From Actinoplanes oblitus (GTDB taxonomy: Bacteria > Actinomycetota > Actinomycetes > Mycobacteriales > Micromonosporaceae), in assembly GCF_030252345.1 (NCBI RefSeq), contig NZ_CP126980.1, positions 1,015,501-1,079,500 of the forward strand: 64,000 nt of DNA. The letters run 5' to 3'. Shown here one piece after another: positions 2,258 through 34,955 of the stretch. The notes below the pieces were generated by a model that was not told where the DNA came from, searched no databases, and saw nothing but the letters and a program-made list of their open reading frames with translations. Made by a program: the position numbers and the translations under genes. The number at the start of each line of letters is the position of its first letter. Positions within the stretch are counted from its first letter, which is position 1.

Positions 2258-2302
2258 GTGGAGGACTACTTGAACCCGCGAGAGCGGGGGACGGTTCACC
2301 CG

Positions 2303-2338
2303 CAGCGGCGGCGCCCACGGCGCCGCCGCTGTCGTTTC
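2303..2338 (+). terminator. Intrinsic-terminator-like hairpin after ssrA
   Basis: A perfect 13-bp GC-rich stem (2303-2315 with 2319-2331) around a 3-nt loop is followed by TCGTTTCT. It lies 46 nt beyond the tmRNA 3' end and is the likely transcription stop, after which the 3' end would be trimmed. Confidence 0.7.
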
Positions 2339-2611
2339 TGGCCTCCTTGACCAGCGGCAACACGAGATCGCGGGAGCGAGGAGTTGATCTGGAAGCATCG
2401 GAAGGGCAGCCACCGCGCGGTCGTCATGCCCGGCGGAGCATTGCAGCGGACTTTCGTGTCGCCTTCGGGTGCCTCTCGTGCGCTGGCCGGCTATGAGGTC
2501 AACGGCTGGCGCCACTTGGCGCGAGCTCGCGACGGTGTCCGTCTTGCATCGCTTCGAGACCAGATCTAGGTACGCGGTGGCTCGCGACAGGAGTCTGCAA
2601 GCCGCATCGCA
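2339..2611. other. Intergenic debris, no supported gene
   Basis: No convincing gene is seen. A 61-codon open frame (2384-2569, plus strand) starts with WKHRKGSHRAVV, which faintly recalls the KGSH segment of HicA-type toxins, but the rest shows nothing familiar and there is no good ribosome site. It may be remnant DNA from elements that inserted next to ssrA. Confidence 0.4.
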
Positions 2612-2826
2612 GTAGCTGCTGGATTCGGCTGTGGTCAGGCCTGCCTGGCGGAGGATCGAGGCTGACGTCCCTCGTTTGACCGCGGGGTGCTGGTGGACCA
2701 CCGCGATCCGCCCGTTCGGATGCTGGAAGACGGCGTGGCTGCCTTTGGTGCGGACGTGGACGAAACCTGCCTGTTCAGAGCGTCTACTACCTTGCGGAGA
2801 GGGAGGTCGGCTAGAGCCGGACTCAT
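2612..2826 (-). pseudogene. hicA: hicA toxin pseudogene (frameshift)
   Basis: HicA is a small double-stranded-RNA-binding-fold mRNA interferase. The start (2826) overlaps the hicB stop by ATGA. The first 19 residues (MSPALADLPLRKVVDALNR) are HicA-like, but the frame is then lost. The continuation AGFVHVRTKGSHAVFQHP, then AVVHQHPAVKRGTSASILRQAGL, is perfect HicA sequence in another frame, including the catalytic-type GSH histidine. Restoring one G within AACAGGCAGG (about 2766-2775) would give LNRAGF and rejoin the two parts. The C-terminus near 2620 also lacks the normal stop, so a second lesion is possible. The gene is probably inactive unless the shift is a sequencing error. Confidence 0.8.
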
Positions 2827-3035
2827 GCGGCCGAGGCGATCTGGAACGCGGTTACGAACGGCGTCGCCTCGATCTGGGGCGGAGAAACCTGTTCCAGGTA
2901 AAGTTCCACCGCTTCGCGGAGATTCGCGAGAGCGTCATCCAGGGTCTCGCCCTGGCTAGCCACGTCGAGCTCAAGGCACCGAGCGACGAACCAGTCGTCC
3001 TCCTGGTGAACCGCGGCGGTCAGCGTTCGAGTCAT
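2823..3035 (-). CDS. hicB: HicB-family antitoxin
   Basis: The 70-residue protein has the short HicB fold: MTRTLTAAVHQEDDWFVARC, then CLELDVASQGETLDDALANL and a C-terminal helix, as in partial RNase-H-fold antitoxins that bind and block HicA. The ATG at 3035 follows GAGAGAAACCC; an in-frame start upstream at 3071 has no better signal. The gene comes first in the pair (hicB-hicA order), and its TGA overlaps the hicA ATG. No DNA-binding extension is visible. With hicA broken, this is probably an orphan antitoxin. Confidence 0.85.
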   Translation of the reverse strand: MTRTLTAAVHQEDDWFVARCLELDVASQGETLDDALANLREAVELYLEQVSPPQIEATPFVTAFQIASAA

Positions 3036-3331
3036 GGGTTTCTCTCGCAGGGTGCGCTCAGGGATCCTCATTCTTAGCGGTCGCCGAGGATGTCTGGCTG
3101 CCCGAGAGTGTCTCGTAGGGCCGCAGACGCTCGATTTGGCTCAAGTAAGCGGTGAGCACCTCGGTCGAATTGTCAGGGCAACACTGGCGGCTGGCACGCT
3201 CGGACGAAGCAGCGACGGAGGCACTTGGGACTCCCGCGCCGATTCGACTAGTGGTGTGCTGTCGCGTTGACGAAACACAAAGCCCAGCCGGGACAGCGCG
3301 GTGGATCGTCTGCACCAGGCGGCTGGATTCG
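3036..3331. other. Region without a supported gene
   Basis: Several open frames cross this stretch on both strands, including a 105-codon minus-strand frame ending 22 bases before hicB. None has a recognisable domain, convincing codon use or ribosome site. It lies between a broken toxin-antitoxin pair and a broken Rhs gene and is probably decayed sequence. Confidence 0.4.
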
Positions 3332-3659
3332 GCCCGGCTGCTCACCGACCCCACCGGCTCGGTCATCGGCTCCACCTACGGTCCGTACGGCAACCGGTCG
3401 GCGCCCACCGGCACGGCGGACAGCCGCATCGGTCGCACCGGCAAACTGGACGGCCCCCGCCACCGGACAGTTCCTCAGCCTGGGATTCGCTGGTGGACAT
3501 CGCCCGGTCAGCCGTGACGACCGCGACAACGAGTTCGTCAAATGGGTCCACCGAGTTGGCAAGAAGTTCGAGAATGGCGGCGACGACATCGGCACCATCG
3601 AAGACATGAGGCGGATCCTCGATCGTTGGGTTCAGCTGGGAAAGCCGAAGGTGACATGA
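3332..3659 (+). pseudogene. Rhs/YD-repeat polymorphic toxin, 3' remnant
   Basis: In one frame (3338 on) the translation reads LLTDPTGSVIGSTYGPYGNR then GRTGKL, the typical end of an Rhs core. The expected continuation is found only in another frame as PATGQFLSLGF, matching the core-closing GRFLSxDP motif. The intervening core residues are missing, so there is a deletion plus a frameshift. That second frame then encodes a short variable C-terminus ending WVHRVGKKFENGGDDIGTIE and MRRILDRWVQLGKPKVT. Rhs proteins carry interchangeable C-terminal toxins for contact-dependent competition. The final TGA overlaps the ATG of the next gene, the usual link between toxin tip and immunity gene. No nuclease or other known motif was recognised in the tip. 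Confidence 0.65.
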
Positions 3660-4165
3660 GGACGATCGAGGATCTGACGGTTCCCGAGCTGATCGAGCGG
3701 CTGGCCGCTGAGGACACGGACACCGTCGTGGAGGCCGCCGACGAGATCGGCCGCAGGCGCGCCACCGAAGCCGCGCCCCGCCTGCTGGAGCTGCTCCGGC
3801 TCACGCCGGAGGCGACGATTCGCAACGCCACCGCGCTGGCACTCTCCGACATGGAGATGCCTGAGGCGTTCGACTCCATCGCCGAACTGCTGCGCGACCC
3901 GAGCACCGAGGGACACCGGGGAACCCTGCTCTACGCCCTCGACCCCTACGACTGCCTGCCGATCCTGGAGCTGCTCATCGATCTGGCCTTGACCGGCGGA
4001 TACGAGGTCCGAATGTCCGCGCTGGGTCTGATCAGCGGCATCGAGGGCGACATCGACGAGGAGATCTGGGACCGGGTGCGGGCGCGTTTGGAGGCCGCGG
4101 CCGCCACCGCGGGCAAGGAGCGGCGGACCGAGGTGATCGACCCGCTGCTGGAGATGTTCAGCTGA
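3656..4165 (+). CDS. HEAT-repeat protein, probable immunity protein for the Rhs toxin tip
   Basis: The 169-residue protein begins MRTIEDLTVPELIERLAAED and consists of paired amphipathic helices (for example TVVEAADEIGRRRATEAAPRLLELL) typical of HEAT-like repeats. HEAT-repeat proteins are a common immunity type next to Rhs and other polymorphic toxins; they act in the cytoplasm by binding the toxin. The start at 3656 is supported by GAAGG eight bases upstream and an ATGA overlap with the preceding toxin frame. A longer in-frame extension upstream would run through the toxin sequence and is rejected. With the toxin core broken, the gene may be kept as an orphan immunity gene. Confidence 0.7.
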   Translation: MRTIEDLTVPELIERLAAEDTDTVVEAADEIGRRRATEAAPRLLELLRLTPEATIRNATALALSDMEMPEAFDSIAELLRDPSTEGHRGTLLYALDPYDCLPILELLIDLALTGGYEVRMSALGLISGIEGDIDEEIWDRVRARLEAAAATAGKERRTEVIDPLLEMFS

Positions 4166-4393
4166 GCGACCTGACCGCCCGGATCCGGCTGTTTCATCTA
4201 CTCACCTCGCTTCGAACGCCCCTGAAAGCGACTGTGCCCATGCGAGCCGGATCGTCGGCTCGTCCGAAGGGGCCCGTCCGGACCCGAGCCGGCGGGGAGA
4301 ACGAAACGCTGAAAGTTTTCGGGGGTCGTAGGTAACCCGGTGGCCTGGACCGGTGTGTATTCAGGTGTGCGGGTGCCGACGGAAGCGGGGGAC

Positions 4394-4912
4394 ATGGCGG
4401 GGGACGACGGCGCTGACTTCGATGCCTTCTATACGGCGGCGGTACGTCGTGTGGTGCTCTACCTCTATGCCGTCAGCGGGGATCGGGCGGAGGCGCAGGA
4501 CGTCGCGCAGGAGGCGTTCGCGCGAGCCTGGCAGCACTGGGCGCGGGTCGCCCGGTACGACGACCCCGAGGCGTGGGTGCGGATGGTCGCGGCGCGGCTG
4601 CTGATCAATCGCTGGCGGGGGTTGCGGCGGTGGGTCGCGGCGCGGTCCCGGATGGGGCCGCCCGACGAGGTGACCGGGAGCCCGTCGCCGGACCGGGTGG
4701 CGGTGGTCAACGCGCTGCAGCGGCTGCCGAAACCGCAACGGCAGGTCATCACCCTGCACTACCTCCTCGACATGCCGGTCCGCGACATCGCCGGGGACCT
4801 CGGCGTCCCGGAGGGGACGGTCAAGGTGCGGCTCTCCCGGGCCCGGACCGCCCTCGCCCGGCTGCTCGACGACAACGACCAGGAGATCAGTGATGTCACG
4901 TCCCGTGCCTGA
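4394..4912 (+). CDS. ECF sigma factor, SigE-like family
   Basis: The 172-residue protein has region 2 (DRAEAQDVAQEAFARAWQHW near residues 30-50) and region 4 (LPKPQRQVITLHYLLDMP, then helix-turn-helix VPEGTVKVRLSRARTAL). It would direct RNA polymerase to a small set of promoters. The ATG at 4394 follows GGAAGCGGGGG; an in-frame GTG at 4340 lacks a good site. The next gene starts inside its 3' end, so the pair is coupled. Family members in actinomycetes are often paired with a membrane regulator, which fits the neighbour. Confidence 0.88.
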   Translation: MAGDDGADFDAFYTAAVRRVVLYLYAVSGDRAEAQDVAQEAFARAWQHWARVARYDDPEAWVRMVAARLLINRWRGLRRWVAARSRMGPPDEVTGSPSPDRVAVVNALQRLPKPQRQVITLHYLLDMPVRDIAGDLGVPEGTVKVRLSRARTALARLLDDNDQEISDVTSRA

Positions 4913-5552
4913 CCGTCTGCGGGATCTGGAGGCCGACGTCCGCGACCTCCGGGTCCTGCCGGCTGCCGCGATCCGTGCCCGCGGCCGGCGTCGGAGGCGC
5001 CGTCAGCTGGCCGCCGTGACGACGGCCGGCGTGGTGCTGGCGGCCGGTGCCGGCGTCGCGTTGGCCTGGCCGCGGCAACCGGCCACGACGGCCGGCGACC
5101 TGCCGAGCGGCGACGCGCCGGTCGTCGAGGTGCCGGCCGACCGCGAGGTGCGCTGCGTGCTCATGTTGCCGGACGATCCGGCCAAGGTGCGGATCCGGGT
5201 GCTGGACGGCGGAGCGCCGGCCGCACTGATCGACGCCACCGCCGATCAACTGCGGAAACGTCGCTTCAGGGTGCTCAACGGCGCGACCGGGTCCCCCCTG
5301 TCGGGTGCGGCTTCGGTGAGCTACGGACCGGCCGCGATCGGGGCGGCCGTCCTGGTGCGGGCGGAGCTGCACGACGCGGCGACCATGCTGTTCGACCCGA
5401 GCCTTCCGGACGCGACCGTCGAGGTGACGCTCGGCGCGGGCTTCACGCGTCTCGCCACCACCACCGAGACCAATCGGAACCTGGTGGCCATCGGCGAGCC
5501 GGTGGCGCCGCCGGAGTGCTCGATCGTCGTGACGCCCTCGCCGGGCGGCTGA
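4893..5552 (+). CDS. Single-pass membrane protein, possible anti-sigma partner
   Basis: The 219-residue protein has an N-terminal cytoplasmic part (about 45 residues, with RARGRRRRRRQLA just before the membrane), one hydrophobic helix (about 36-58) and an extracytoplasmic domain of about 155 residues with two cysteines. It overlaps the sigma gene by 20 bases. AGGAG at 4881-4885 fits the ATG at 4893 better than the GTG at 4890. The zinc-binding HxxxCxxC motif of ZAS anti-sigma factors is absent, so the role as sigma regulator rests on position and topology only. Confidence 0.6.
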   Translation: MSRPVPDRLRDLEADVRDLRVLPAAAIRARGRRRRRRQLAAVTTAGVVLAAGAGVALAWPRQPATTAGDLPSGDAPVVEVPADREVRCVLMLPDDPAKVRIRVLDGGAPAALIDATADQLRKRRFRVLNGATGSPLSGAASVSYGPAAIGAAVLVRAELHDAATMLFDPSLPDATVEVTLGAGFTRLATTTETNRNLVAIGEPVAPPECSIVVTPSPGG

Positions 5553-5572
5553 ACGGAGACGCCCGATTCACC

Positions 5573-5606
5573 GGCCCCGGTTCGCGGATGTCCGCGAACC
5601 GGGGCC
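5573..5606 (+). terminator. Perfect 16-bp hairpin after the sigma/membrane operon
   Basis: Positions 5573-5588 pair exactly with 5591-5606 around a 2-base centre, 20 bases after the stop codon, followed by TTCG. It is a probable terminator; the near-perfect palindrome would also work on the other strand. Confidence 0.7.
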
Positions 5607-5703
5607 TTCGTGCATGGATGTCTGGTGCCCACGAGTGGCTTGAGGTCACTGAGAGTGATGTGATGAGTTGTAGTGTGACAGCGGTCATGCGAGGGCGTTA
5701 AGC

Positions 5704-5715
5704 TACTCGCGAGTA
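5704..5715. promoter_or_regulatory. 12-bp palindrome upstream of pntA, candidate operator
   Basis: TACTCGCGAGTA is a perfect palindrome 110 bases before the pntA start, in a relatively AT-rich leader. Its size and symmetry fit a dimeric repressor site, such as a TetR-type regulator. No regulator gene lies next to it, so the binder is unknown. Confidence 0.4.
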
Positions 5716-5825
5716 ACAAGCTCATTCCTTGAACGCGTTCATGGTCGGCATACGTGGAGACACTCACCTTCACGTTTTCCGCCGTAGGTCCGGCAACGTC
5801 GCTAGAACTGCACGGGAGTCGATTA

Positions 5826-7358
5826 ATGATCATTGGTGTTCTCGGGGAGTCCAGCCCCGGTGAGACGCGGGTGGCGGCGACGCCCGCGACCGTGGGCCAG
5901 TTGCTCAAGCTGGGATACGAGGTCGTGGTGGAGCCCGGAGCGGGGCGGCGGTCGTCCTACTCCGACGAGGCCTACGCGGAGGCGGGTGCCACGCTCGGCG
6001 ATCCGTACCGGGCGGACATCCTCTTCGCGATCAACGCGCCGGAACTGGCCCGGCTGGACCGGCTGCGGGCCGGGGCGACGCTGATCGGCGTCTTCAGCCC
6101 GCGGCTCAACGAGGAGTTGGTCCAGGAGTTCGCGCGACGGCCGATCACGGTGCTGTCGATGGACGCGGTGCCGCGGATCTCGCGGGCGCAGTCGCTGGAC
6201 GTGCTCTCGTCGATGGCGAACATCGCCGGTTATCGAGCGGTAGTGGAGGCGGCGCACGCGTTCGGCAGGTTCTTCACCGGGCAGGTGACCGCGGCCGGCA
6301 AGGTGCCACCGGCGAAGGTGCTGGTGGCCGGGGTCGGGGTGGCCGGGCTCGCGGCGATCGGCGCGGCCGGCAGCCTGGGCGCGATAGTCCGGGCCACCGA
6401 CCCCCGGCCCGAGGTGGCCGACCAGGTCAAGTCGCTCGGCGGGGAGTACCTCGCGGTGCAGGCGGCGGACGTCGAGGTGTCCGCGACCGGGTACGCCAAG
6501 GAGATGTCCGACGACTACAACGAACGGGCCGCCCGGCTCTACGCCGAGCAGTGCACCGACGTGGACATCATCATCACCACCGCGCTGATCCCCGGCCGGC
6601 CGGCGCCGCGGCTGATCACCGAGCGGATGGTGGCCAGCATGAAACCGGGCAGCGTGATCGTCGACATGGCGGCCGCCAACGGCGGGAACGTCGAGGGCAC
6701 GGTCGCCGGCGAGGTGATCACCACGGCGAACGGCGTGACCATCATCGGCTACACCGACCTGGCCGGCCGGCTGCCCGCCCAGGCGTCCCAGCTCTACGGC
6801 ACCAATCTGGTGAACCTGATGAAGCTGATGACCCCGGAACGGGACGGCTGCCTGGTACTCGACTTCGACGACGTCGTGCAGCGCTCGATCACCGTCGTAC
6901 GCGAAGGCGAACTGACCTGGCCGCCGCCTCCCGTGTCGGTCTCGGCGACCCCGGCCCCGGTGGCTCCCGCGGTGATCGCCGAGCCGAAGGCGAAGGCGCA
7001 GCCGGCCACCGCCGGACCGCGCCGCGACCTGCTGCTCGTCGGCGCCGGCGCGGCGGTGCTGTTCCTGCTGACGGCGTTCGCGCCGGATGCCCTGCGCGTG
7101 CACCTCACGGTCTTCGCGCTGGCCATCGTGATCGGCTACTACGTCATCGGGCACGTGCACCACGCGCTGCACACGCCGCTCATGTCGGTGACCAACGCGA
7201 TCTCCGGGATCATCGTGGTGGGCGCCCTGCTGCAGCTCGGGCACGGTGGGCCGGTGGTGACCGCGCTGTCGTTCATCGCCATCCTGCTGGCCAGCATCAA
7301 CGTCTTCGGTGGCTTCGCGGTGACCCGCCGCATGCTCGCCATGTTCACCAGGAGCTGA
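5826..7358 (+). CDS. pntA: NAD(P) transhydrogenase subunit alpha
   Basis: The 510-residue protein matches the length of fused-type PntA. Residues 1-380 form the NAD(H)-binding domain I ([20 protein letters not shown] start; dinucleotide motif [19 protein letters not shown] near 165; [17 protein letters not shown]). After a Pro/Ala linker there are about four membrane helices from residue 400 on ([19 protein letters not shown] onward). With PntB it couples hydride transfer from NADH to NADP+ to proton inflow and so supplies NADPH. ATG 5826 is preceded by GGGAG; a longer frame from 5754 would add residues with no homology. pntB starts 4 bases after the stop. Confidence 0.95.
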
Positions 7359-7362
7359 CGAG

Positions 7363-8781
7363 ATGACCATCGAAACCGCGGCCCAGGCGGCGTATCTCGT
7401 CGCGGCCCTGCTCTTCATCCTGGCGCTGGCCGGCCTGTCCCGGCACGAGAGCGCCAAGTTCGGCAACCTCTTCGGCATCCTCGGGATGGCGCTGGCCCTG
7501 GTCGCGACGGTGGCGCTGGCGGTGGTCGGCGACCTGAGCGGCACCGGCCTGGCCCTGCTGCTGGTGGCGATGGGCATCGGCGCCACGATCGGCCTGTACC
7601 GGGCCGGCAAGGTCGAGATGACCGGGATGCCGGAGCTGATCGCCTTGCTGCACAGCTTCGTCGGCCTGGCCGCCGTGCTGGTCGGCTGGAACGGATACCT
7701 GCACGTCGAGGCCGATCCGGCCGGCGCCGAGGCGGCCGCGCTCGGGGCTCAGCACCTGCTCGGGATCCACAGTGCCGAGGTGTTCATCGGCGTCTTCATC
7801 GGCGCTGTCACCTTCACCGGGTCGATCGTCGCCTTCCTCAAGCTGTCCGCCCGGATGAAGTCGCGGCCGCTCATGCTGCCCGGCAAGAACCTGCTCAACG
7901 TGGGCGCGCTGATCGCCTTCGTGGCGCTGACCGTCTGGTTCGTGATCGACCCGCGGCTCGGGGCGCTGATCGCGGTGACAGCCATCGCGCTGCTGCTCGG
8001 CTGGCACCTGGTCGCCTCGATCGGCGGCGGCGACATGCCGGTCGTGGTGTCCATGCTGAACAGCTACTCCGGATGGGCCGCCGCGGCCTCCGGGTTCCTG
8101 CTCTCCAACGACCTGCTGATCGTGACCGGGGCGCTGGTCGGGTCGTCCGGCGCCTACCTGTCGTACATCATGTGCAAGGCGATGAACCGGTCGTTCCTGT
8201 CGGTGATCGCCGGTGGCTTCGGCATCGAGGCCGGGCCGTCCGACGACACCGACTACGGCGAACACCGGGAGATCCAGGCGGACGCCGTCGCCAAGCTGCT
8301 CAGCTCGGCCGATTCGGTGATCATCACGCCGGGGTACGGGATGGCGGTGGCCCAGGCGCAGTACGGCGTCGCCGAGCTCACCCGCAAACTCCGGGAGAAG
8401 GGGGTGGACGTCCGGTTCGGCATCCACCCGGTCGCCGGTCGCCTGCCCGGGCACATGAACGTGCTGCTCGCCGAGGCGAAGGTGCCGTACGACGTGGTGC
8501 TGGAGATGGACGAGATCAACGACGACTTCGCCCGGACCTCGGTGGTGCTGGTGATCGGCGCCAACGACACGGTGAACCCGGCGGCCACCGAGGACCCGGC
8601 GAGCCCGATCGCGGGCATGCCGGTGCTGAAGGTGTGGGAGGCCGGCGAGGTGATCATCTTCAAGCGGTCGATGGCGTCCGGGTACGCGGGCGTACAGAAC
8701 CCGCTCTTCTTCCGGGAGAACAGCGCGATGCTCTTCGGCGACGCCAAGGAGCGGGTGAACGACATCCTGCGCGCCTTCTGA
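7363..8781 (+). CDS. pntB: NAD(P) transhydrogenase subunit beta
   Basis: The 472-residue protein has about eight to nine membrane helices in the first 270 residues and the NADP(H)-binding domain III at the C-terminus. Visible signatures are [50 protein letters not shown] and the closing [17 protein letters not shown]. It forms the proton channel and NADP site of the membrane-bound transhydrogenase. It lies 4 bases after pntA in an obvious two-gene operon and is followed by a strong hairpin. Confidence 0.95.
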
Positions 8782-8789
8782 CCGCCGCC

Positions 8790-8822
8790 GCCGGGGTCCC
8801 GGGTGTCCGCCCGGGCCCCGGC
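8790..8822 (+). terminator. Hairpin after pntAB
   Basis: A 13-bp GC stem (8790-8803 with 8810-8822, one bulged T at 8797) with a 6-nt loop starts 9 bases after the pntB stop. There is no U-tract, so it is terminator-like rather than classical. Confidence 0.55.
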
Positions 8823-8863
8823 GGGATAGATAACGATCACTCGGGTCGGACAGAATCGCGGCT

Positions 8864-10081
8864 ATGAGCGACCATGCCGCGACAGTACGGGACTACGACC
8901 TGTTCACCACCGAGGCGATGACCGACCCGGACGTCTTCCTGCACCGGGTCCGCGCCGAGAGTCCGCTCGCCTGGCTGCCCCAGTTCGACGCCTACCTGCT
9001 GACCCGGTACGCCGACGTGCACGCCGCGCTGCGCGACAAGCGGCTGGACAGCGCCAACATGGCCCGCGTCCTGCAGCGCCTGACCCCCGCGGAGCAGGAG
9101 GAGCTGGCCCCGGTCCGGCGCTCCATCGAGATGTGGATGGGGCACACCGTCCCGGCCGACCACGTGCGCTTCCAGCAGCTGCTCAAGCGGTACTTCACCC
9201 CGGCGATGGTGGACCGGTTGCGGCCGCGGGTGCGGGAGTTCACCCACGAGCTGATCGACGCCGTCGCCCCGAAGGGGAAGATGGACGTGGTCCGCGACCT
9301 GGCCTATCCGCTGCCGGCGAACGTAATCGCCGAGCTGCTCGGGATGCCGGTCAGCGACCGCGAGCAGTTGCAGGCGTGGTCCCGCGACATCGTGCCGATC
9401 TTCGGCAACGGTGACGTCCAGCAGCTGCGGGTGGCCCAGCGCAGCATGCTGGAGATGCACGACTACCTGCGGGTCATCGCGGCCGAGCGCCGCCGGGAGC
9501 CCCGCGAGGACGTGCTGAGCACGTTCATGGCGGCCGAGGCCGAGGGCGTCGTCACCGAGGACGAGGCGGTCGCCAACTGCGTGCTGCTGCTCTTCGCCGG
9601 TCACGAGACCACCGCCAACCTGATCGCCAACGGGCTGGTGCTGCTCTTCGACAACCCCGGCCAGCTGGCCAAGCTCCGGGCCGATCCGGACCTCATGCCG
9701 CTCGCCGTCGAGGAGATGCTGCGCTGCGACGGCCCGGCCGGGGTGATCGGCCGGGACGCCACCGAGCCGGTCGAGCTGGCCGGGCATGCGATACCGGCCG
9801 GGAAACACATCTACCTGGCGCTGATGGCGGCGAACCGGGACCCGGAGGTCTTCGCCGACCCGGACGTCTTCGACATCACCCGCAAACCCAACCGCCATCT
9901 CAGCTTCGGCATGGGCACCTATTACTGCCTGGGCGCGGCGCTGGCCCGGATGGAGACGGACGAGTGCATGCGGATCCTGCTGGATCGGTGCCCCGAGTTG
10001 CGGCCGGCTTACGAGACGCCGGACTGGCAGCCGAGCATGCCGATCGGTCACCGGCTCGGCTCGCTGCCGGTGACCTTCTGA
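8864..10081 (+). CDS. Cytochrome P450
   Basis: The 405-residue length is typical of soluble bacterial P450s. The I-helix oxygen-activation motif AGHETTANL lies near residue 245, the K-helix ExxR sits within EEMLRCDGP, and the heme-binding loop FGMGTYYCLGAALAR has its cysteine ligand near 354. The usual histidine two residues before the cysteine (FGxGxHxC) is replaced by tyrosine. It is a heme monooxygenase needing separate ferredoxin and reductase partners; none is next to it, and the substrate cannot be predicted. It starts 82 bases after pntB but is separated from it by the hairpin. Confidence 0.92.
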   Translation: MSDHAATVRDYDLFTTEAMTDPDVFLHRVRAESPLAWLPQFDAYLLTRYADVHAALRDKRLDSANMARVLQRLTPAEQEELAPVRRSIEMWMGHTVPADHVRFQQLLKRYFTPAMVDRLRPRVREFTHELIDAVAPKGKMDVVRDLAYPLPANVIAELLGMPVSDREQLQAWSRDIVPIFGNGDVQQLRVAQRSMLEMHDYLRVIAAERRREPREDVLSTFMAAEAEGVVTEDEAVANCVLLLFAGHETTANLIANGLVLLFDNPGQLAKLRADPDLMPLAVEEMLRCDGPAGVIGRDATEPVELAGHAIPAGKHIYLALMAANRDPEVFADPDVFDITRKPNRHLSFGMGTYYCLGAALARMETDECMRILLDRCPELRPAYETPDWQPSMPIGHRLGSLPVTF

Positions 10082-10110
10082 CGGCGTACCGAAAAGGGTG
10101 GGAAAAGCAG

Positions 10111-10139
10111 AACGCCCGGACCGAGGTCCGGGCGTTTCG
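10111..10139. terminator. Bidirectional-type terminator between P450 and the duplicated tRNA end
   Basis: AACGCCCGGAC pairs with GTCCGGGCGTT (11 bp, short loop) followed by TCGC on the plus strand. It serves P450 and was probably also the original terminator of tRNA-Ala before the element inserted. Confidence 0.65.
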
Positions 10140-10142
10140 CAA

Positions 10143-10190
10143 GGGTGGAGCTGAGGGACTCGAACCCCTGACCCCCACACTGCCAGTGTG
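10143..10190 (-). repeat. Distal attachment site: duplicated 3' part of tRNA-Ala(GGC)
   Basis: This 48-base stretch repeats positions 14051-14099, differing by one missing G in the T-stem. It covers the tRNA from the anticodon loop to the 3' end and diverges abruptly at AAGATG. Such a partial copy in the same orientation as the intact tRNA is the signature of site-specific integration. The element lies between this copy and the tRNA. Confidence 0.85.
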
Positions 10191-10396
10191 AAGATGTCAG
10201 TTGCAGTGATCGGCAGGAGTCGGGTTTCGGCAGCTCACACGGGGGCTAGTCACACGCCTAACGGTATCTCGCAGCGCGTGTGAGATGACGACGTGTGATA
10301 CGTGTGTGATATCGGAAAGGATGCAATTCCCCTGGTCAGGAGGGCTCAGATGTTGACACCGAGCCCATCAGTGGTCCCGTTGCGGGCGCAGTGACC
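10191..10396. other. Element end region with repeated CACACG/TGTGAG motifs
   Basis: There is no gene here. Short motifs CTCACACG (10234), TCACACG (10250), CGTGTGAG (10277), ACGTGTGAT (10291) and CGTGTGTGAT (10301) occur within 80 bases. Related words recur upstream of and just after the recombinase pseudogene, so they are candidate recombinase arm sites. Confidence 0.4.
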
Positions 10397-11212
10397 TTAG
10401 GAGCTTCTTGCACGGGGATTCCCGCCCGCAGCATCCGAATATTCCGTCACGCCCGCGATAACTGCAATATCTTCGTCGCCTAGACCCGCCGATTCAGCAT
10501 CCTCGGACTCCGAAGTTGTCACGGGTTCCCCCGACGGAGTCTGCGCATCTAGCTGCGACGGACCGACTGCCGCCGCCAATAAAGCCGCGTTCGGAACATT
10601 AAGCGGGCCCTCATCTGTTTCGAGGACTGTGTAGAGAAGTCCGGCCGAAAAAATGGTTCCGATGTGCGGACCGTTGATCGATCCGTTCATTACTCTTATC
10701 CTCTGCCCAGGGACGTACGGGCGCGCGAAGAGTAGAACTAGACCTGCGAATAGGTTGCTCAGTACGGGCTGAGCGGCAAGCCCTAGAACGACGCCAGTTA
10801 TCGCACCGCCGACGAGCAGTTGTCGTAACTCGATTCCGGCGAGATCGCATACGGAGACCGCGACGGTAAAATAGCCGACTAGCAGCACCACGAAGCGCAG
10901 CGGAGTTCCTGCGGCGTCTCCAGCTTTTGCGGATGCCACACGTTGGACCTCTCGCGCCGCTGAGCGAGTCGCGGCAATCCCGAGCAATCCCGTAAGCATC
11001 GCGCACCCGTAGGCAATAAGTCGCATACGAAGCGAGGCGGTGTGTACGCCTCCGACGGCATGTCCGGCGATTAGCGTAGCTAATGCCCCCAGGCCTAATA
11101 CAATTGTTCGCCGTAGATGCAGACGAAGACCAAGCTCTAGCCGGCGCGAAGACTCAGAGTCGGGGCTGGAAGGTGTACTTCCGCCAATACTTTGCCTCGT
11201 TGCTGACCACAT
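10397..11212 (-). CDS. MscS-family mechanosensitive channel-like protein
   Basis: The 271-residue protein has an N-terminal basic tail, three hydrophobic helices (about 34-52, 63-80, 106-126) and then the MscS pore helix and beta-domain entry: GGAITGVVLGLAAQPVLSNL, FAGLVLLFARPYVPGQRIRV. MscS channels open under membrane tension and release solutes during hypo-osmotic shock. The C-terminal domain is shorter than in E. coli MscS and ends in an acidic, probably disordered tail. The gene is lower in GC than the chromosome and lies in the integrative-element remnant. No neighbour suggests a specific role. Confidence 0.8.
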   Translation of the reverse strand: MWSATRQSIGGSTPSSPDSESSRRLELGLRLHLRRTIVLGLGALATLIAGHAVGGVHTASLRMRLIAYGCAMLTGLLGIAATRSAAREVQRVASAKAGDAAGTPLRFVVLLVGYFTVAVSVCDLAGIELRQLLVGGAITGVVLGLAAQPVLSNLFAGLVLLFARPYVPGQRIRVMNGSINGPHIGTIFSAGLLYTVLETDEGPLNVPNAALLAAAVGPSQLDAQTPSGEPVTTSESEDAESAGLGDEDIAVIAGVTEYSDAAGGNPRARSS

Positions 11213-11599
11213 GCTTGCTCTCCCTTCGCGGAAGCGCCAACCTTAGCGAACCCATCCAGGTCGAGTTCGAGGGATCACTCGCCCGAGCATCAAGATGTGA
11301 CCAAGCTTACTTGTCAGATTTGCGGCATTGGTGCGGACCGCTAGGTCGGGTGGCAGCTCACCGTGCCAGGGTTGCTACCTTGCAGCGATAAGTGGGGGCG
11401 GCGCAGCAATCGGCAAGCACCTCGCGACGAGCCCCTGGCGTATTCCATCTTGCTGCGGATACGTCTCCACCGGGAGAGGCTAAGGAGCGCACCAAACGCA
11501 GCGATCTAAGATGTTAAACGCCGAGCGCTCGTCCTTTGATCACACAGGCAGGAGCATGCATCCTGTCGGCATGGTCGGCAGGAGGGATATAATTCAGGC
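11213..11599. other. Intergenic region in the element, no gene seen
   Basis: This AT-richer stretch lies between two divergent genes. Open frames here are short, antisense to the MscS gene or lack a ribosome site. It presumably holds the divergent promoters. Confidence 0.4.
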
Positions 11600-11785
11600 A
11601 TGCGCGCTTTTGCCGGCAAGACGGCCAAGGTTGTTTTCGTCGTCGTGACTGCCAGTCTCGGGTGGTACCTTGGAACGTTGATAGGATCTCAATTCTTCGA
11701 AAGCAAGGCGACCGGCCCCACTCTTGGGTTTGTGCTGGGAGTGGCATTGGGGGTATCTGCAATAACGCTCAGCCCGAGGAAGTGA
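11600..11785 (+). CDS. Small two-helix membrane protein
   Basis: The 61-residue protein has a basic start (MRAFAGKTAK), a hydrophobic helix (about 11-28) and a second Gly-rich helix (TLGFVLGVALGVSAITL) with glycine-zipper spacing. No family was recognised. AGGAGGG lies about 15 bases before the ATG, farther than ideal. It sits inside the element remnant and is followed 200 bases later by a large palindrome that could end its transcript. The coding call rests on this hydrophobic pattern, so it is moderate. Confidence 0.5.
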   Translation: MRAFAGKTAKVVFVVVTASLGWYLGTLIGSQFFESKATGPTLGFVLGVALGVSAITLSPRK

Positions 11786-12001
11786 GGACCATCAAGAACG
11801 CGTTCAGCTGTGACGTAATAAATTTGCCATGTTGGCCGACCGTAACGACATTACGATGCGCTATGCGTCGCGGTCGCCTTAGGCGTCGATATAAAATTGT
11901 CGTCACCTTGGACTATCGCGGCCACTCGGCGCCGGAACGCGGACGTTGCTGCGAACGCCCTCCTGTAATCAGGCACGTCGTTGGCCGCTTGCGCTCGCAT
12001 T

Positions 12002-12037
12002 GCGAAGGCCGTGTCCCAATTGGGACACGGCCTTCGC
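12002..12037. terminator. Perfect 36-bp palindrome
   Basis: Positions 12002-12019 are the exact reverse complement of 12020-12037, centred on AATT. As RNA it forms a hairpin of up to 16 bp with a small loop. It lies between the small membrane gene (plus) and the exported protein gene (minus), so it is probably a bidirectional terminator, though a protein-binding site is possible. Confidence 0.6.
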
Positions 12038-12117
12038 CAAGATCAGCTTACGGTGTGACGCGCATGGCCATCTGTACGAATGGCCTGGCTGTGGGGCATC
12101 GCGTCGTCTGATTCAGT

Positions 12118-28925: not shown

Positions 28926-31346
28926 GTGCCGATCCGTGGCGGTCTGCCGCCGCGCAACCCCCGCTTCGTGGGCCGTGAAGAGCTACTGTCCCGCGTGCGC
29001 GGCCTGCTCGGCAATGGTCCAGTGGTGTTGCTGCCGAGTCCGGACCATCAACTCGGCGGAACTGGACGTACCCAGTTGGCGGTGGAGTATGCCTACCGGC
29101 ACGCCGACGCCTACGACCTGGTCTGGTGGATCCCGGCGGAGCAGAACGCGGGGATGCGGGCGGCGCTCGCCGGCCTGGCACAGAAACTCGGGCTGCCCGA
29201 GGCCCGTGATCTGAACCGCACCCTCGGGGCGGTGCGCGACGCGCTGAGCCGGGGCGAGCCCTACCGGCACTGGCTGGTCGTCTTCGAGAACGCGAACCGG
29301 CCCGAGGACATCATGCCGTACCTGCCGTCCGGGGCCGGGCACGTGCTGGTGACCAGCCGCAACCCGCGCTGGACCGCCGAGGTGGCGCAGGCCCTGCCGG
29401 TGCCGGTGTTCGACCGGGCGGACGCTGTCGACATGCTGCGCGGCCGGGCTCCGGAGCTGTCCGCGCAGGAAGCCGACCGGCTCGCCGATCGCCTGGGCGA
29501 CGTGCCGATCGCGCTCGACCTGGCCGCCGCGGTCCGGTCCGCCACCGGCTGGCCGGTCCCGGAATACCTGGACCGCTACGACCGGCGGGCCGCCGAGCTG
29601 GCCTTCCCCACTCCGCTCCGGGTCACCTGGGGGCTGGCCGCCGACGCGCTCGCCGAGGCCGGCCCGGCCGACCGGATGCTGCTCGAACTCTGCACGTTCC
29701 TGGCCAGCGCCCCGATCTCCTGGCAGCTGCTCTGGGCGGCGCGCACCCTGCCGCTGGACCCGCAGGTGGCCCGGACGGTCCGGGTGGAGCGCCGGCTGCG
29801 GGCCGCGATGCGCCGTATCGCCCGGTACGGCCTGGCCGGCCTGGACCCGTCCGGCGAGCGGCTCACCGTGCACCCGCTGATCCGCGGCATGTTCGCCCAG
29901 GAGCTCAGCTCGGAGCGGCACGCGGAGCTGCTGCGGACGGTTCGCGGCATGCTGTCGGCGGCCGATCCGGGTGACCCGGACAACCCGGCCGGCTGGTACC
30001 GGTACGCCGAACTGGCCCCGCACCTGATCCACTCGGACCTGCTCGGCGGTGACGCCGAGGAGGTCCGCCAGCTGGTGATCAACTGCATCCGGTTCCACTA
30101 CGCCCGCGGCGACTACGACTCCAGCCGCGAGCTGGCCGGCGCCGCGGTGGCCCGCTGGCGCGACGCGCTGGGCGAGTCCGCCGAGCAGACCCTGCTCGCC
30201 TCGTTCCACCTGGCGAACGCGCTGCGGGCGGTGGGCCGGACGACCGACGCCCGGACCCTCAACCTGCAGACCCTGCGCACCCAGCGGGAGGTGTTCGGCG
30301 CCGACGACGAGGCCACCCTGGCCACCGCCAACAGCGTCGGCGGCGACCTGCGGATGCAGGGCCACTTCGGCCAGGCCCGGCAGCTCGACGCGGACAACCT
30401 GGTGCGCTACCGCCGGCTGTTCGGGGACAGCTTCCCGACCGCGCTGCGCTGTGCCAACAACCTCGGCATCGACCTGCGACTGATCGGCGACTTCCGGGGC
30501 GCCCGGGCACTCGACGAGCAGACCCTGCGGCACCGGCAGGCGATCAACGCGCCCGGCCACCCGGAGACGCTGGCGTCCCGGGCCGCGCTGGCCTACGACC
30601 TGTTCGGGCTGGGCGACTACGCCGGGGTGGCGACGGTGCTGGGCGGGCACGCCGAGCAGGTGGCCGAGGACCACCCGTTCGCGCTCTGGGCCGGCCGGCT
30701 GACCGCGATGGCCGCGCACCGGCGGGGCCGGCCGGAGGCACGTGAGCTGGCCACCGCCAACTTCGCCGCGTGCCGGCAGCGCTTCGGCGACCTGAACGTG
30801 GACACCCTGTCCACCGCGGTCTCGCTGGCCAACTGCGTGCGCGCCGCCGGTGACCTGACCGGCGCGCACGAGCTGCTGGAGCGGGCGGTGATCCGGTTCC
30901 ACGCGGTGCTCGGCGACGAGCACCCGTTCACCCTGGCCGCCTCGGCCGGGCTGGCCGGGGTGGTCCGCGCGGCCGGGCGGCACCACGAGGCCCGGACCAT
31001 CGACGAGGAGGTGCTCGGCGGGCTGCGGCGCAGTGTCGGCGCCGATCACCCGTTCACGCTGAGCTGTGCGAACGGGCTGGCCGCCGACCTGTTCGCGGCC
31101 GGTGAGGCGCAGCCGGGGCGGGAGCTGGCCGCTGACACACTGCGCCGGTCCCGGGTGGTGCGCGGCGCCGACCATCCGGACACGGTGGCCTGCGCCTGGA
31201 ACCTGGCGCTCGCCGACCAGGACGAGGCGGGGCAGCAGCAGGCACTGGCGGCGCTGACGAAGGCGTACGGCGACGGCCACCCGATCTTTCAGGTGACCGC
31301 CGCCGGCAAACGTCTGGAGACGGACATCGACCTGCCGCCGTTGTGA
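28926..31346 (+). CDS. FxsT-like NB-ARC/TPR protein with degenerate P-loop
   Basis: The 806-residue protein starts GGLPPRNPRFVGREELLSRV and continues LAVEYAYRHADAYDLVWWIP, the pattern of tetratricopeptide proteins of FxSxx-COOH systems (FxsT). Residues 15-330 are NB-ARC-like. Residues 400-790 are kinesin-light-chain-type TPRs with recurring HPxTLxxxxxLA-like words (DEATLATANS, HPFTLAASAGLA). The usual P-loop GGVGKTQLA is here GGTGRTQLA with Arg for the catalytic Lys, and the Walker B region reads LVVFENAN instead of LLVLDNAD, so ATP hydrolysis is doubtful. The FxSxx-COOH peptide and HExxH gene lie 3.4 kb downstream on the opposite strand, across a c-di-GMP gene. Confidence 0.75.
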   Translation: MPIRGGLPPRNPRFVGREELLSRVRGLLGNGPVVLLPSPDHQLGGTGRTQLAVEYAYRHADAYDLVWWIPAEQNAGMRAALAGLAQKLGLPEARDLNRTLGAVRDALSRGEPYRHWLVVFENANRPEDIMPYLPSGAGHVLVTSRNPRWTAEVAQALPVPVFDRADAVDMLRGRAPELSAQEADRLADRLGDVPIALDLAAAVRSATGWPVPEYLDRYDRRAAELAFPTPLRVTWGLAADALAEAGPADRMLLELCTFLASAPISWQLLWAARTLPLDPQVARTVRVERRLRAAMRRIARYGLAGLDPSGERLTVHPLIRGMFAQELSSERHAELLRTVRGMLSAADPGDPDNPAGWYRYAELAPHLIHSDLLGGDAEEVRQLVINCIRFHYARGDYDSSRELAGAAVARWRDALGESAEQTLLASFHLANALRAVGRTTDARTLNLQTLRTQREVFGADDEATLATANSVGGDLRMQGHFGQARQLDADNLVRYRRLFGDSFPTALRCANNLGIDLRLIGDFRGARALDEQTLRHRQAINAPGHPETLASRAALAYDLFGLGDYAGVATVLGGHAEQVAEDHPFALWAGRLTAMAAHRRGRPEARELATANFAACRQRFGDLNVDTLSTAVSLANCVRAAGDLTGAHELLERAVIRFHAVLGDEHPFTLAASAGLAGVVRAAGRHHEARTIDEEVLGGLRRSVGADHPFTLSCANGLAADLFAAGEAQPGRELAADTLRRSRVVRGADHPDTVACAWNLALADQDEAGQQQALAALTKAYGDGHPIFQVTAAGKRLETDIDLPPL

Positions 31347-31349
31347 GGC

Positions 31350-33035
31350 TCAGCCGGCCAGCGGGATGTCCCTCTCGCTGTCGGCCTGCTTGTCGAGGAG
31401 CTCGGTGACGCCCAGGGCGGGCATCGGCTTGGCGAAGTGGTAACCCTGCGCCCGGCTGCACGCCAGCTCCCGCAGCCACTCGGCCTGCGCCGCGTCCTCC
31501 ACGCCCTCGGCCACCGGCGCCAGGTTGAAGGTCCGGGCGATGTGCAGCACCGCCTCGGCCACCGACGCCCCGCCGCTCTCCGGCATCGCCTGCACGAACG
31601 AGCGGTCGATCTTGACCACGTCCACCGGCAGCGCGCTCAGGTGGCTGAGCGAGGAGAACCCGGTGCCGAAGTCGTCCAGCGCGATCCGTACGCCGAGCTC
31701 CTTCAGCTCGCTGAGGATCCGCGCCGACTCGACCAGGTCGACCAGCGCCACCGACTCGGTCAGCTCCAGGACCAGGTGCTCCGGGTCCAGGCCGGTACGC
31801 TCCAGCACCGCGCGGACCTCGGCCACCAGGTTCGGGTTGCTCAGCTGTGAGGCGGACAGGTTGACGTTCATCTCGAAGCCGGGGAACTGGCGCTGCCAGT
31901 GCACCGCCTGCCGGCACGCCTCCTCGAGCACCCAGCCGCCGAGCCGGGGGAGCAGGCCGAGCTGCTCGGCCAGCTCCAGGAAGAGGCCGGGCGGGACCAG
32001 GCCCTTCTCCGGGTGCTGCCAGCGGATCAGCGCCTCGACGCCGACGGTGTGCTCGCCGTCCAGGTCGACGATCGGCTGGTAGTGCACCTCGAACTCGCCC
32101 AGGTCCAGGGCCCGGATGATGTCGCCCTCGGCCTTGCGGCGCTGCTCCTCCAGGGCGAACAGCTCGGGGTCGAACCGGCGGACCGCGCCGCCGCCGTCCA
32201 GCTTGGCCCGGTGCAGGGCCTGGTCGGCCTCGCGCAGCACGTGGTCGATGCCGTCGCCGCCGTCGGTCAGCGCGACACCCGCGCTGGCCCGGATGGTCAT
32301 CCTGACGCCGTCCACCTCGATCGGCCGGTGCAGCTCGGTGAGCACCCGCTCGGCCACCGCGACGGCTGCCTGCTCGTCCTCCAGGCCGGGCAGCAGCACC
32401 ACGAACTCGTCGCCATCGAGGCGGGCCACCACGTCGTTGGCGCGCACGTTGGCGGCCAGCCGGTCGGCGGCGGCGCGCAGCAGGCCGTCGCCGATCTCGT
32501 GACCGTGCGTGTCGTTGAGCTCGCGGAAGCCGTCCAGGTCGACCACGATCACCGCGGTCATCGTCCGGCTCGCCTCGGCCAGCTCGTGCTCGGCCCGCTC
32601 CAGGAACATCGTGCGGTTGCCGACGCCGGTCAGCGGGTCCCGGTAGGCCTGCCGGACCAGCAGCGCCCGCTGCGTCGTCATCTCCCGGATCAGGGCCTTG
32701 TCCGAACCGGCGCCGATCCAGCGACGCGCCAGCACCGTCACGGCCATCGCCAGCAGCAGCCAGATCGCTCCCCGGGCGAGTTCGCCCTGCAGGTGCCGGA
32801 TGCCGCTGACGGCGAGGGCCGCCGCTGTCGGCGCGAACCGCAGGATCGGCCGCTCCGGCGCGACCAGCAGCATCGCCAGGCCGAGACAGAGGGCCGCGGC
32901 CACCGGAACCAGCCGGGTCGTCCAGGTGCCGCCGGCAGCGTCCGCCGCAGGCCACACCAGCAGTACCAGTGAAGCCAGAACGATGCCGTCGTCGACGACG
33001 CGCCGCATCCGGTCCAACAGTGCTTTCCGAGCCAC
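31350..33035 (-). CDS. Membrane GGDEF/EAL protein (c-di-GMP turnover)
   Basis: The 561-residue protein has about five hydrophobic helices in the first 125 residues. A GGDEF domain (about 135-300) follows, with active-site loop RLDGDEFVVLLPG (first Gly replaced by Asp), then an EAL domain (about 310-545) with GVEALIRW, the NVNLSASQ, ELTESVAL and DDFGTGFSSL signatures and AEGVED. Catalytic residues of the EAL phosphodiesterase appear complete; the cyclase loop is slightly altered. It would set c-di-GMP levels at the membrane. It ends 3 bases from the convergent FxsT-like gene. Confidence 0.88.
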   Translation of the reverse strand: MARKALLDRMRRVVDDGIVLASLVLLVWPAADAAGGTWTTRLVPVAAALCLGLAMLLVAPERPILRFAPTAAALAVSGIRHLQGELARGAIWLLLAMAVTVLARRWIGAGSDKALIREMTTQRALLVRQAYRDPLTGVGNRTMFLERAEHELAEASRTMTAVIVVDLDGFRELNDTHGHEIGDGLLRAAADRLAANVRANDVVARLDGDEFVVLLPGLEDEQAAVAVAERVLTELHRPIEVDGVRMTIRASAGVALTDGGDGIDHVLREADQALHRAKLDGGGAVRRFDPELFALEEQRRKAEGDIIRALDLGEFEVHYQPIVDLDGEHTVGVEALIRWQHPEKGLVPPGLFLELAEQLGLLPRLGGWVLEEACRQAVHWQRQFPGFEMNVNLSASQLSNPNLVAEVRAVLERTGLDPEHLVLELTESVALVDLVESARILSELKELGVRIALDDFGTGFSSLSHLSALPVDVVKIDRSFVQAMPESGGASVAEAVLHIARTFNLAPVAEGVEDAAQAEWLRELACSRAQGYHFAKPMPALGVTELLDKQADSERDIPLAG

Positions 33036-33192
33036 GATCCACCTCCGGTCGCTCAGATCGGTCCACCGGCGGTCGGGTTAAGTGATCCAGGTCGCCTTTC
33101 GGGCTCTGCTACCGAGTACAAAACCGCAGGTCAACCGAGCTGCAACCGACAGTTCGGCGGTACTGTCGGCTGCACGTGCAGAAGCCGGTGCG

Positions 33193-34749
33193 TCAGCCCG
33201 AGAGCCAGGCCGCCAGGTCCGCGATGTCCGCTTCCGGAGCGGCGAGTGCCGCAGCGCGGACGATCTCCGGCCGGTCGCGCAGCGCGCGATGCGGCGAGAC
33301 CAGGGCCAGCCCGCTCCAGGCCGCCTCGCGCGAGCGGTCCGTCAGAAGAGCTTTCCGGTACGCCCGGAGCGCCGCCCCGTGGCTGCCCCGCAGACACGCG
33401 TCGTCGCCGTCCAGCGCCGCCCGCTCCGGCTCGTCCCGCAGCAGCGCCCGGATCAGCCGCAACCGCGGGCTCGACTCCACGACCCGTTCGGTGCGGGCCA
33501 CCGTGGCCTCGACCGCGGGCGGCGGCTGCCCGGCCCGCCACGCCGCGGCCAGCGCCGCCGCGTCGCCGGGCGGCACGGTCAGGTTCCGCAGCCGCCAGCG
33601 CGCCCGGTGATCGGCCCGGGCCAGTCCGGCCAGCCGGTCCACCTCGGGATCCACCGGCTCGGCCAGCCACGGCGCCACCTCGTCGCGCAGCGCGGCCACC
33701 ACCCGGGCCCCGGCCGGGGTCAGCGCGCCGCCGCCGAGCAGCCGCCCGGCCGTCTCGTGCACCGCCACCCGCCAGCGGGCGAACTCGAACTCGGCCTCGC
33801 TGACGCCCGGCGCGGCCGGTCCGCCGTCGCGGGCGTCGAACTCGGCCTGCCCTTGTTCGCCGGCGTCGTACGCGGCCTGCCCTTGTTCGCCGGCGTCGCG
33901 CGTGGCCGGTCCGGCTTCGCCGATGCCTCGCGCCGCGCCGGCGGCCCGCAGCTCGGCACGCCAGAAGCGGGTCACGGCCAGGAAGGCGTAGATGCCGTGC
34001 AGGATGCCGAAGACCGGCCGCGGGTCCTCCCGCCACGGCGAATAACTCCGGTCCGCCCCCGGTGCGACCAGGGGGAAGAGCCCGTGCGCCGCGTTCAGCA
34101 CGCTGTGCTGGGTCTCGTGCAGCAGCGCGACCGCCAGCCCGGTCCCGGAGGCCGGCGCCGACATCGCCACCGCCCCGAACGCCTCCGCCGAGGTGGCGCT
34201 CACGCCCTCGGCGAGCGGGTCCGGGCGGGCCGGCACGATCACCCGCAGCACACCGCCGAGGATGCCGGCCGCCGCCGGATGCCTGTCGACCAGGATCCGC
34301 CACGCCGCGTCGAGGCAGCGCCGCCAGTGCGCCAGCCCGGCCGGGTCGAGCGGCTCGGCCGGCGGCAGCCCGATCAGGTGGCGCAGCGGACCCCGGTCGT
34401 CCAGCCGCACTCGCAGGGTGCGCCCGGCGTGCGTGGTGACCAGCAGATGCCCGGCCGGCTCGGGTAGCTCACCGACAGTGGGCGGCACCCCGGCGCGGCG
34501 CGCGGCCAGCAGCCGGGCCGCCCACAGGCCGGTCATCGGGTCGGCGGCGCGCTGCCGGGACTGATCGGCCGGCAACGCGCGCAGGTGGGCGTACCAGAAG
34601 GGGTCTTCGGGAACCGCGCGCCGAGCCTCCCGCAGGAGGAGCAGATGGCGGCTGAGGCGGGCCCGGCGCAGCAGGGCGAGGGTGTCGGCCGAAGGCCGGC
34701 CGGCACCCAGGGCGGCGAGGTCGGCGTCGGCGAGCCGGAACTGGCGCAA
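33193..34749 (-). CDS. HExxH-type peptide modification enzyme of an FxSxx-COOH system
   Basis: The 518-residue protein contains LLHETQHSVLNAAHGLF near residues 209-225, the HExxH motif of a family known from FxSxx-COOH loci, often fused behind a radical SAM domain. From memory, current naming is aKG-HExxH-type peptide beta-hydroxylase. Other family-like segments are RHLLLLREARR near 33 and GILHGIYAFLAVTRFW near 250. No CxxxCxxC radical SAM motif occurs in the protein. Residues about 280-305 hold a twofold DAGEQGQA repeat. It probably starts at TTG 34749, 17 bases after the precursor stop, so both form an operon. Confidence 0.78.
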   Translation of the reverse strand: MRQFRLADADLAALGAGRPSADTLALLRRARLSRHLLLLREARRAVPEDPFWYAHLRALPADQSRQRAADPMTGLWAARLLAARRAGVPPTVGELPEPAGHLLVTTHAGRTLRVRLDDRGPLRHLIGLPPAEPLDPAGLAHWRRCLDAAWRILVDRHPAAAGILGGVLRVIVPARPDPLAEGVSATSAEAFGAVAMSAPASGTGLAVALLHETQHSVLNAAHGLFPLVAPGADRSYSPWREDPRPVFGILHGIYAFLAVTRFWRAELRAAGAARGIGEAGPATRDAGEQGQAAYDAGEQGQAEFDARDGGPAAPGVSEAEFEFARWRVAVHETAGRLLGGGALTPAGARVVAALRDEVAPWLAEPVDPEVDRLAGLARADHRARWRLRNLTVPPGDAAALAAAWRAGQPPPAVEATVARTERVVESSPRLRLIRALLRDEPERAALDGDDACLRGSHGAALRAYRKALLTDRSREAAWSGLALVSPHRALRDRPEIVRAAALAAPEADIADLAAWLSG

Positions 34750-34766
34750 ACCGCAGATCCCGCCGG

Positions 34767-34955
34767 TCAGAGCGCCGAGTTGAAGCCGGCGATCTGCTCG
34801 CTGGGTCCGGCCAGGTCGTCGGCGAACCGGCGCAGGCAGTGGTCCAGGGCGGAGTCCTCCCGGGCGACCAACTCGTCCAGGGTGGACTCGGAGACGTCGA
34901 TCATGGCGGACCGCCAGTCCGGCGCGTGTGCGTCGTGCGGCTGACCCGTCTCCAC
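34767..34955 (-). CDS. FxSxx-COOH precursor peptide
   Basis: The 62-residue peptide ends GFNSAL, matching the C-terminal F-x-S-x-x signature. Its leader is acidic and helical (STLDELVAREDSALDHCLRR and FADDLAGPSEQIA), as expected for a ribosomally made peptide recognised by modification enzymes. GTG 34955 is preceded by GAGGGGG. The HExxH gene follows after 17 bases. A single cysteine lies mid-peptide. The modified product and function of such systems are not known. Confidence 0.78.
   Translation of the reverse strand: METGQPHDAHAPDWRSAMIDVSESTLDELVAREDSALDHCLRRFADDLAGPSEQIAGFNSAL

Follow-up and report, generated by a model that had tools for sequence, protein, structure and literature searches.

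How is a peptide of the FxSxx-COOH family matured when the gene for its radical S-adenosylmethionine (SAM) enzyme, FxsB, does not lie beside it? The question is raised by a 64,000-nucleotide stretch of DNA from Actinoplanes oblitus (here called the window; C1:1,015,501-1,079,500 of a 9.81-Mb genome in one contig), which carries genes for an FxSxx-COOH precursor, a predicted peptide beta-hydroxylase of the alpha-ketoglutarate (aKG)-HExxH type, and FxsT. We find it moderately probable that this locus is one part of a split, triceptide-like system in which FxsB acts in trans, whereas a preliminary description of the window had proposed a peptide modified by its HExxH enzyme and nothing else. No publication on this locus turned up in the open-access literature; subscription journals were mostly outside that search.

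A conserved peptide locus without FxsB

The genes were identified from open reading frames and NCBIfam models. The precursor (residues 2 to 62 scanned) matched TIGR04268 at 34.5 bits (cut-off, 28), the HExxH protein matched TIGR04267 at 144 bits (cut-off, 40), and FxsT matched NF040586 at 790 bits (cut-off, 300). The precursor ends in F-N-S-A-L, an FxSxx terminus, and 17 bases separate its stop codon from the start of the HExxH gene. The HExxH protein, whose nearest named relative is in Actinoplanes ianthinogenes (80% identity), carries the motif of its family and, in its predicted structure, the TIGR04267 family fold; the structural comparison covered Foldseek's top chains. The preliminary description thus placed a 62-residue precursor, the HExxH enzyme, and an FxsT-like gene correctly. 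Its naming of the last as an NB-ARC/TPR protein holds for FxsT and TPR; Pfam recognized TPRs alone in it, and NB-ARC gave no match at an E value of 0.01. It was also right that the window contains no FxsB (TIGR04269). FxsC was seen only in a second, complete locus of the same genome (locus D, below), and no search aimed at FxsC was made in the window.

To follow the locus through the genus, a genome was called window type if its best HExxH match had an E value of 1e-50 or less; the weakest match accepted in the genus was 3.6e-53 and the strongest rejected was 1.2e-33. The window-type HExxH gene is present in 49 of 67 Actinoplanes genomes and in one genome outside the genus (G343). The precursor was found in every one of 57 locus records, which comprise 30 loci from the genus search, 26 named loci, and the window (the window locus occurs two times in this total, and the sets overlap in some species), and these represent 42 distinct sequences. 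AGFNSA is invariant in all 42, with codons that differ synonymously; Ile precedes it in 40, and the last residue is Leu in 33, Val in 4, Ile in 4, and Phe in 1. A degenerate DNA pattern for IAGFNSA occurs in 47 of the 49 window-type genomes (not in G025 or G062), in none of the 18 others in the genus, and in 5 of 287 genomes outside it, G343 included, while the reversed control pattern occurs in none of 354 genomes. The presence of the precursor in all records, the invariant core with synonymous codons, and the DNA pattern result rule out a spurious open reading frame.

The missing FxsB is equally constant, being absent from the 5- to 10-kb flanks of all 26 named loci (flanks of about 10 kb were taken, except for L055, with 5.4 kb on one side, and L061, with 8.4 kb). 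On the neighborhood conservation that the preliminary description asked about, these loci keep synteny for the most part over some 20 kb, and the locus in its FxsB-less form is genus-wide. Loci L016 to L019, L197, L198, and L199 were not used in the analysis.

Such constancy is one argument for the proposal that the HExxH enzyme by itself hydroxylates a linear IAGFNSAL core, with no crosslink, and that FNS is kept for recognition by the HExxH enzyme or by FxsT. Another is that PflC and PosC, also aKG-HExxH enzymes, are described in the available part of PMC12636437 as using peptides without a cyclophane. On the other side, neither Phe nor Ser of the FxS motif varies among the 42 precursors, and we consider this proposal doubtful on the further evidence that follows.

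FxsB elsewhere in the genome

Although FxsB is absent from the window, it is not absent from the genome: two FxsB genes score above the cut-off, with matches at 583,894 and 5,690,759. The first is an orphan set among other genes, with no FxsA, HExxH, or FxsT found within 6 kb. At the same spot the close relative G043 has two precursors (cores LAAFDNFA and LAAFGNFA), two FxsT genes, FxsB, and HExxH. Compared with G043, A. oblitus lacks positions 2089 to 5902 and 7141 to 12057 of this locus (L138), on both sides of an FxsB frame that is still whole; judging from this alignment, the precursors, HExxH, and FxsT that once accompanied the orphan are gone. Its ratio of nonsynonymous to synonymous substitution (dN/dS) is 0.15 against G033 and 0.19 against G043, and the two complete-locus copies compared give 0.17. 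The second FxsB gene belongs to a complete Fxs locus (locus D) in which it is fused to an HExxH domain. The precursor of that locus was missed both by the TIGR04268 search of the genome, in which 150 of 733 first-look candidates were scored, and by a 16-seed precursor hidden Markov model (HMM).

Two further FxsB-less loci were seen in A. oblitus, L012 (C1, about 1,549,700 to 1,554,500) and L013 (3,322,300 to 3,327,000), each with a precursor, HExxH, and a convergent FxsT. Their cores read ISGYNGKF or ISGYNPSF, L113 is a third locus of the same kind, and their HExxH enzymes fall among those of the other FxsB-less loci in the tree described below. An 866-amino-acid open frame with two radical SAM domains lies at C1 977,028 to 978,893; it is unrelated to the precursor locus and is presumably an FO synthase of the F420 pathway.

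Table 1. Features of the peptide locus (window positions) and of the FxsB loci elsewhere in the genome (C1 positions)
Feature	Position	Strand	Description
FxSxx-COOH precursor (FxsA-like)	34767..34955	-	62 aa; leader about 1-54; C-terminal core IAGFNSAL; TIGR04268
aKG-HExxH-type peptide beta-hydroxylase (predicted)	33193..34749	-	518 aa; HETQH at 211-215; C-terminal TPR-like part; TIGR04267
GGDEF-EAL protein	31350..33035	-	561 aa; Pfam EAL and GGDEF
FxsT, STAND-type NTPase-like plus TPR	28926..31346	+	806 aa; NF040586; putative peptide receiver
Orphan FxsB	C1:583,684-585,015		Intact frame; CxxxCxxC intact
Complete Fxs locus L014 (locus D)	C1 5,690,366-5,699,528		Precursor ending LFGSSI, FxsB fused to HExxH, FxsC, FxsT

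Kinship of the HExxH enzyme, leader, and core

In a tree of 106 HExxH rows (L055 left out), the 26 window-type rows form one clade, with a support of 99 in the Shimodaira-Hasegawa-like approximate likelihood ratio test (SH-aLRT). The half of the tree that contains this clade also contains 27 of the 28 FxsB-adjacent rows and the other half contains 51 of the 52 other FxsB-less rows, with a deep support of only 80 to 86. The window enzyme therefore nests with proteins encoded next to FxsB, which argues against HExxH acting alone. In favor of HExxH acting alone, 44 of the 54 other HExxH loci have no FxsB in the stretch examined. The cores agree with the tree. The nearest FxsB-adjacent loci have VAGWNSAM, VAGFNAAL, VAGFTSAI, and VAGFEAVI, while the FxsB-less loci elsewhere mostly have cores like SGYNPQRLD or GGSGPPGRVD, which look like the RxD type described in the accessible portion of PMC7159879.

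The leader gives a similar picture. A profile was built from 31 FxsB-adjacent precursors of the genus with no window-type rows among them; the window leader scored 43.9 bits in it and three other window-type leaders scored 38 to 51, against 13 and 19 for loci B and C and 4.8 for the best of 200 shuffles, with a trace of circularity in that the 31 rows were chosen by their score in the 16-seed HMM, 3 of whose seeds are window type. For the same reason the score of the window precursor in the 16-seed HMM itself is circular. A 14-row precursor alignment searched against the A. oblitus genome (150 of 238 first-look candidates scored) recovered the window precursor at an E value of 8.5e-25, locus C at 0.0011, and two others at 0.18 and 1.07; it includes the window precursor and three more window-type rows. 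From the leader scores and this search, the window peptide is the one good known substrate candidate, among those scored, for the orphan FxsB. We also considered whether the likeness to FxSxx might be fortuitous, with the GYN motif of loci B and C as the actual one. This was rejected, as the window core is closer to the FxsB-adjacent FxSxx cores, the leaders of B and C score well below that of the window, and the tree places the HExxH enzymes in opposite halves.

The leader profile bears also on an alternative in which the trans-acting enzyme for the window peptide is not the orphan but the fused FxsB-HExxH protein of the complete 5.69-Mb locus. In its favor, the genome has this protein as a second FxsB, and it brings an HExxH domain with it. 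Its own adjacent precursor, ending in LFGSSI, has a leader of a different kind (-1.1 in the profile), and several window-type genomes (among them G010, G011, G012, G016, and G043) have no FxsB of fused length among their matches; we judge this alternative decidedly unlikely.

Taken together, the HExxH phylogeny, the leader, and the core place the window locus, as far as sequence kinship can tell, among systems served by FxsB. The tree and the leader, together with the FxsB genes found elsewhere in the genome, lower the standing of the HExxH-only proposal of the preliminary description, and the occurrence of FxsB in the genus goes against it as well.

FxsB across the genus

FxsB is present in 64 of the 67 genus genomes, and the three without it are also without a window-type locus. 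A standalone FxsB was found in all 49 window-type genomes and in 12 of the 18 others (11 if a G046 copy below the cut-off is excluded); an orphan FxsB was found in 35 of 49 and in 1 of 18, respectively. Fisher tests on this co-occurrence ignore relatedness. Counted by copy among the 104 standalone FxsB copies classified with their flanks (fused copies and a few weak matches were left out), orphans make up 37 of the 85 from window-type genomes (counting G343) and 1 of the 19 from the remaining genomes; the orphan loci L184, L238, and L243 are flagged as lying near the end of the stretch examined. On an FxsB tree of 104 rows (L196, from G343, was left out, its frame being wrong), orphan status needs 16 changes, of which at least 12 are forced by supported branches. 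Complete loci thus seem to have decayed repeatedly, leaving FxsB behind. Six loci (L187, L188, L211, L220, L244, and L247) share a conserved double arrangement with two FxsB genes about 7 kb apart and two FxsT genes, in which no HExxH was detected.

A number of observations weigh against the action of FxsB in trans on the window peptide, the deep support of the HExxH tree being one of them. The sister of the window clade in that tree is the HExxH protein of the FxsB-less L101 (SH-aLRT, 95), on a long branch, which is also a point for HExxH acting alone. The FxsB-less L118 provides another case of an FxS-like core with no FxsB nearby, in a precursor candidate ending in AGWQSC. By the rule used, an orphan FxsB is lacking in 14 of the 49 window-type genomes (one of them is G033, whose locus counted as full under the rule owing to a truncated precursor remnant), and some, such as G010, G017, and G043, have a single FxsB that sits inside a complete locus with other precursors. 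For the orphan of A. oblitus, the low dN/dS may in part be older than the deletions, and the ancestral substrates had LAAFxNF cores, not AGFNSAL. Finally, 85 of the 104 classified FxsB copies sit in window-type genomes in any case, and an rpoB tree covering 60 of the 67 genomes shows only two losses of the window-type locus, giving two independent pairs, so the co-occurrence cannot reach significance or be separated from shared ancestry.

FxsT and the GGDEF-EAL gene

In 25 of the 26 named loci FxsT and HExxH are convergently oriented; in L070 they share a strand. The window FxsT has GGTGRT as Walker A and FENA as Walker B. Among 26 window-type FxsT proteins scored, 25 were readable; Walker A is GGTGRT in 24 and GGVGRT in 1, and Walker B is FENA or FEDA in all 25. 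In 136 other FxsT stretches the Walker B Glu is found in none of the 90 that are readable, and where Walker A can be read it has mostly Lys and in some cases Arg. The replacement of Lys by Arg in Walker A and of Asp by Glu in Walker B, noted for the window and for L050 to L075, suggests altered nucleotide use by window-type FxsT, and the invariance of the core is suggestive of an internal, conserved signal to this protein.

These two features could also be combined without FxsB. The genus-wide AGFNSA peptide would then be a fixed signal matured with no radical SAM step, its linear FxSxx tail hydroxylated by the HExxH enzyme and read by the changed-site FxsT, and FxsB would serve other peptides. 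We regard this as unlikely.

The GGDEF-EAL gene separates HExxH from FxsT in 24 of the 26 named loci and is absent from L058 and L065, where HExxH adjoins FxsT. The preliminary description had taken it as a hint of regulation by cyclic di-GMP. Since the gene belongs to the 20-kb syntenic stretch and is missing from two loci, the link is weak and a specific coupling is unsupported; the protein is probably a syntenic neighbor outside the system. Its GGDEF motif reads, by eye, DGDEF, which makes cyclase activity uncertain, and its EAL domain matches Pfam well.

Proposed mechanism

We hypothesize that the window supplies the precursor, the aKG-HExxH hydroxylase, and the TPR receiver FxsT, and that an FxsB that forms the Phe-x-Ser cyclophane comes in trans, in A. 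oblitus most likely from the orphan gene at 583,684. First, FxsB would recognize the leader and is predicted to crosslink Phe58 to the Cbeta of Ser60; according to the available text of PMC11002830, MscB forms a C4(Phe)-Cbeta(Ser) bond. The HExxH enzyme would then beta-hydroxylate one residue of the crosslinked tail, an order for which ChlH, whose hydroxylation requires a preinstalled cyclophane in the part of PMC12636437 available, offers a precedent. Last, the tail would act on FxsT as a conserved internal signal and not as a diversifying antibiotic. The trans action, the two reactions and their order, and the role of FxsT as receiver are all our inferences from the evidence above.

The HExxH protein might in place of this be a zincin protease that releases the C-terminal peptide with no oxidation, following the reading in the accessible part of PMC7159879. 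The HExxH motif is present, and PflC hydrolyzes truncated substrates in what is available of PMC12636437; we consider a protease very improbable.

If FxsB does act in trans, cluster mining that demands an adjacent radical SAM gene would miss the peptide of 49 of 67 genus genomes, and the repeated orphaning of FxsB would become explicable. A fixed natural peptide adjoining its FxsT also makes the question of the FxsT ligand testable.

Comparison with known systems

The closest likeness is to the FxsB-adjacent Fxs systems (TIGR04268, TIGR04269, TIGR04267, and NF040586) and triceptides, with which the window locus shares the precursor family, the C-terminal FxSxx, HExxH, FxsT, and the leader class. 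It differs from them in having no FxsB, in its one invariant core genus-wide, and in an FxsT whose Walker A has Arg and whose Walker B has Glu. The RxD or acidic type of FxsB-less system, in the part of PMC7159879 available, also combines a precursor, HExxH, and an NTPase/TPR gene with no radical SAM gene, but its core is RxD and not FxSxx and its HExxH belongs to the opposite half of the tree. With the HExxH enzymes of ChlBH and SjiH (PDB 8s5f and 22ob/22nu), the window HExxH shares the predicted fold and the active-site motifs; it is unlike them in standing as a protein of its own, which has an additional TPR-like part at the C-terminus and no fused radical SAM domain. PflC and PosC are likewise standalone HExxH enzymes in loci of ribosomally synthesized and posttranslationally modified peptides, for which the accessible portion of PMC12636437 lists no radical SAM gene, and they differ from the window enzyme in their cores (a Gln run and ARMD) and in their partner, a multinuclear nonheme iron oxidative enzyme (MNIO)-nitroreductase.
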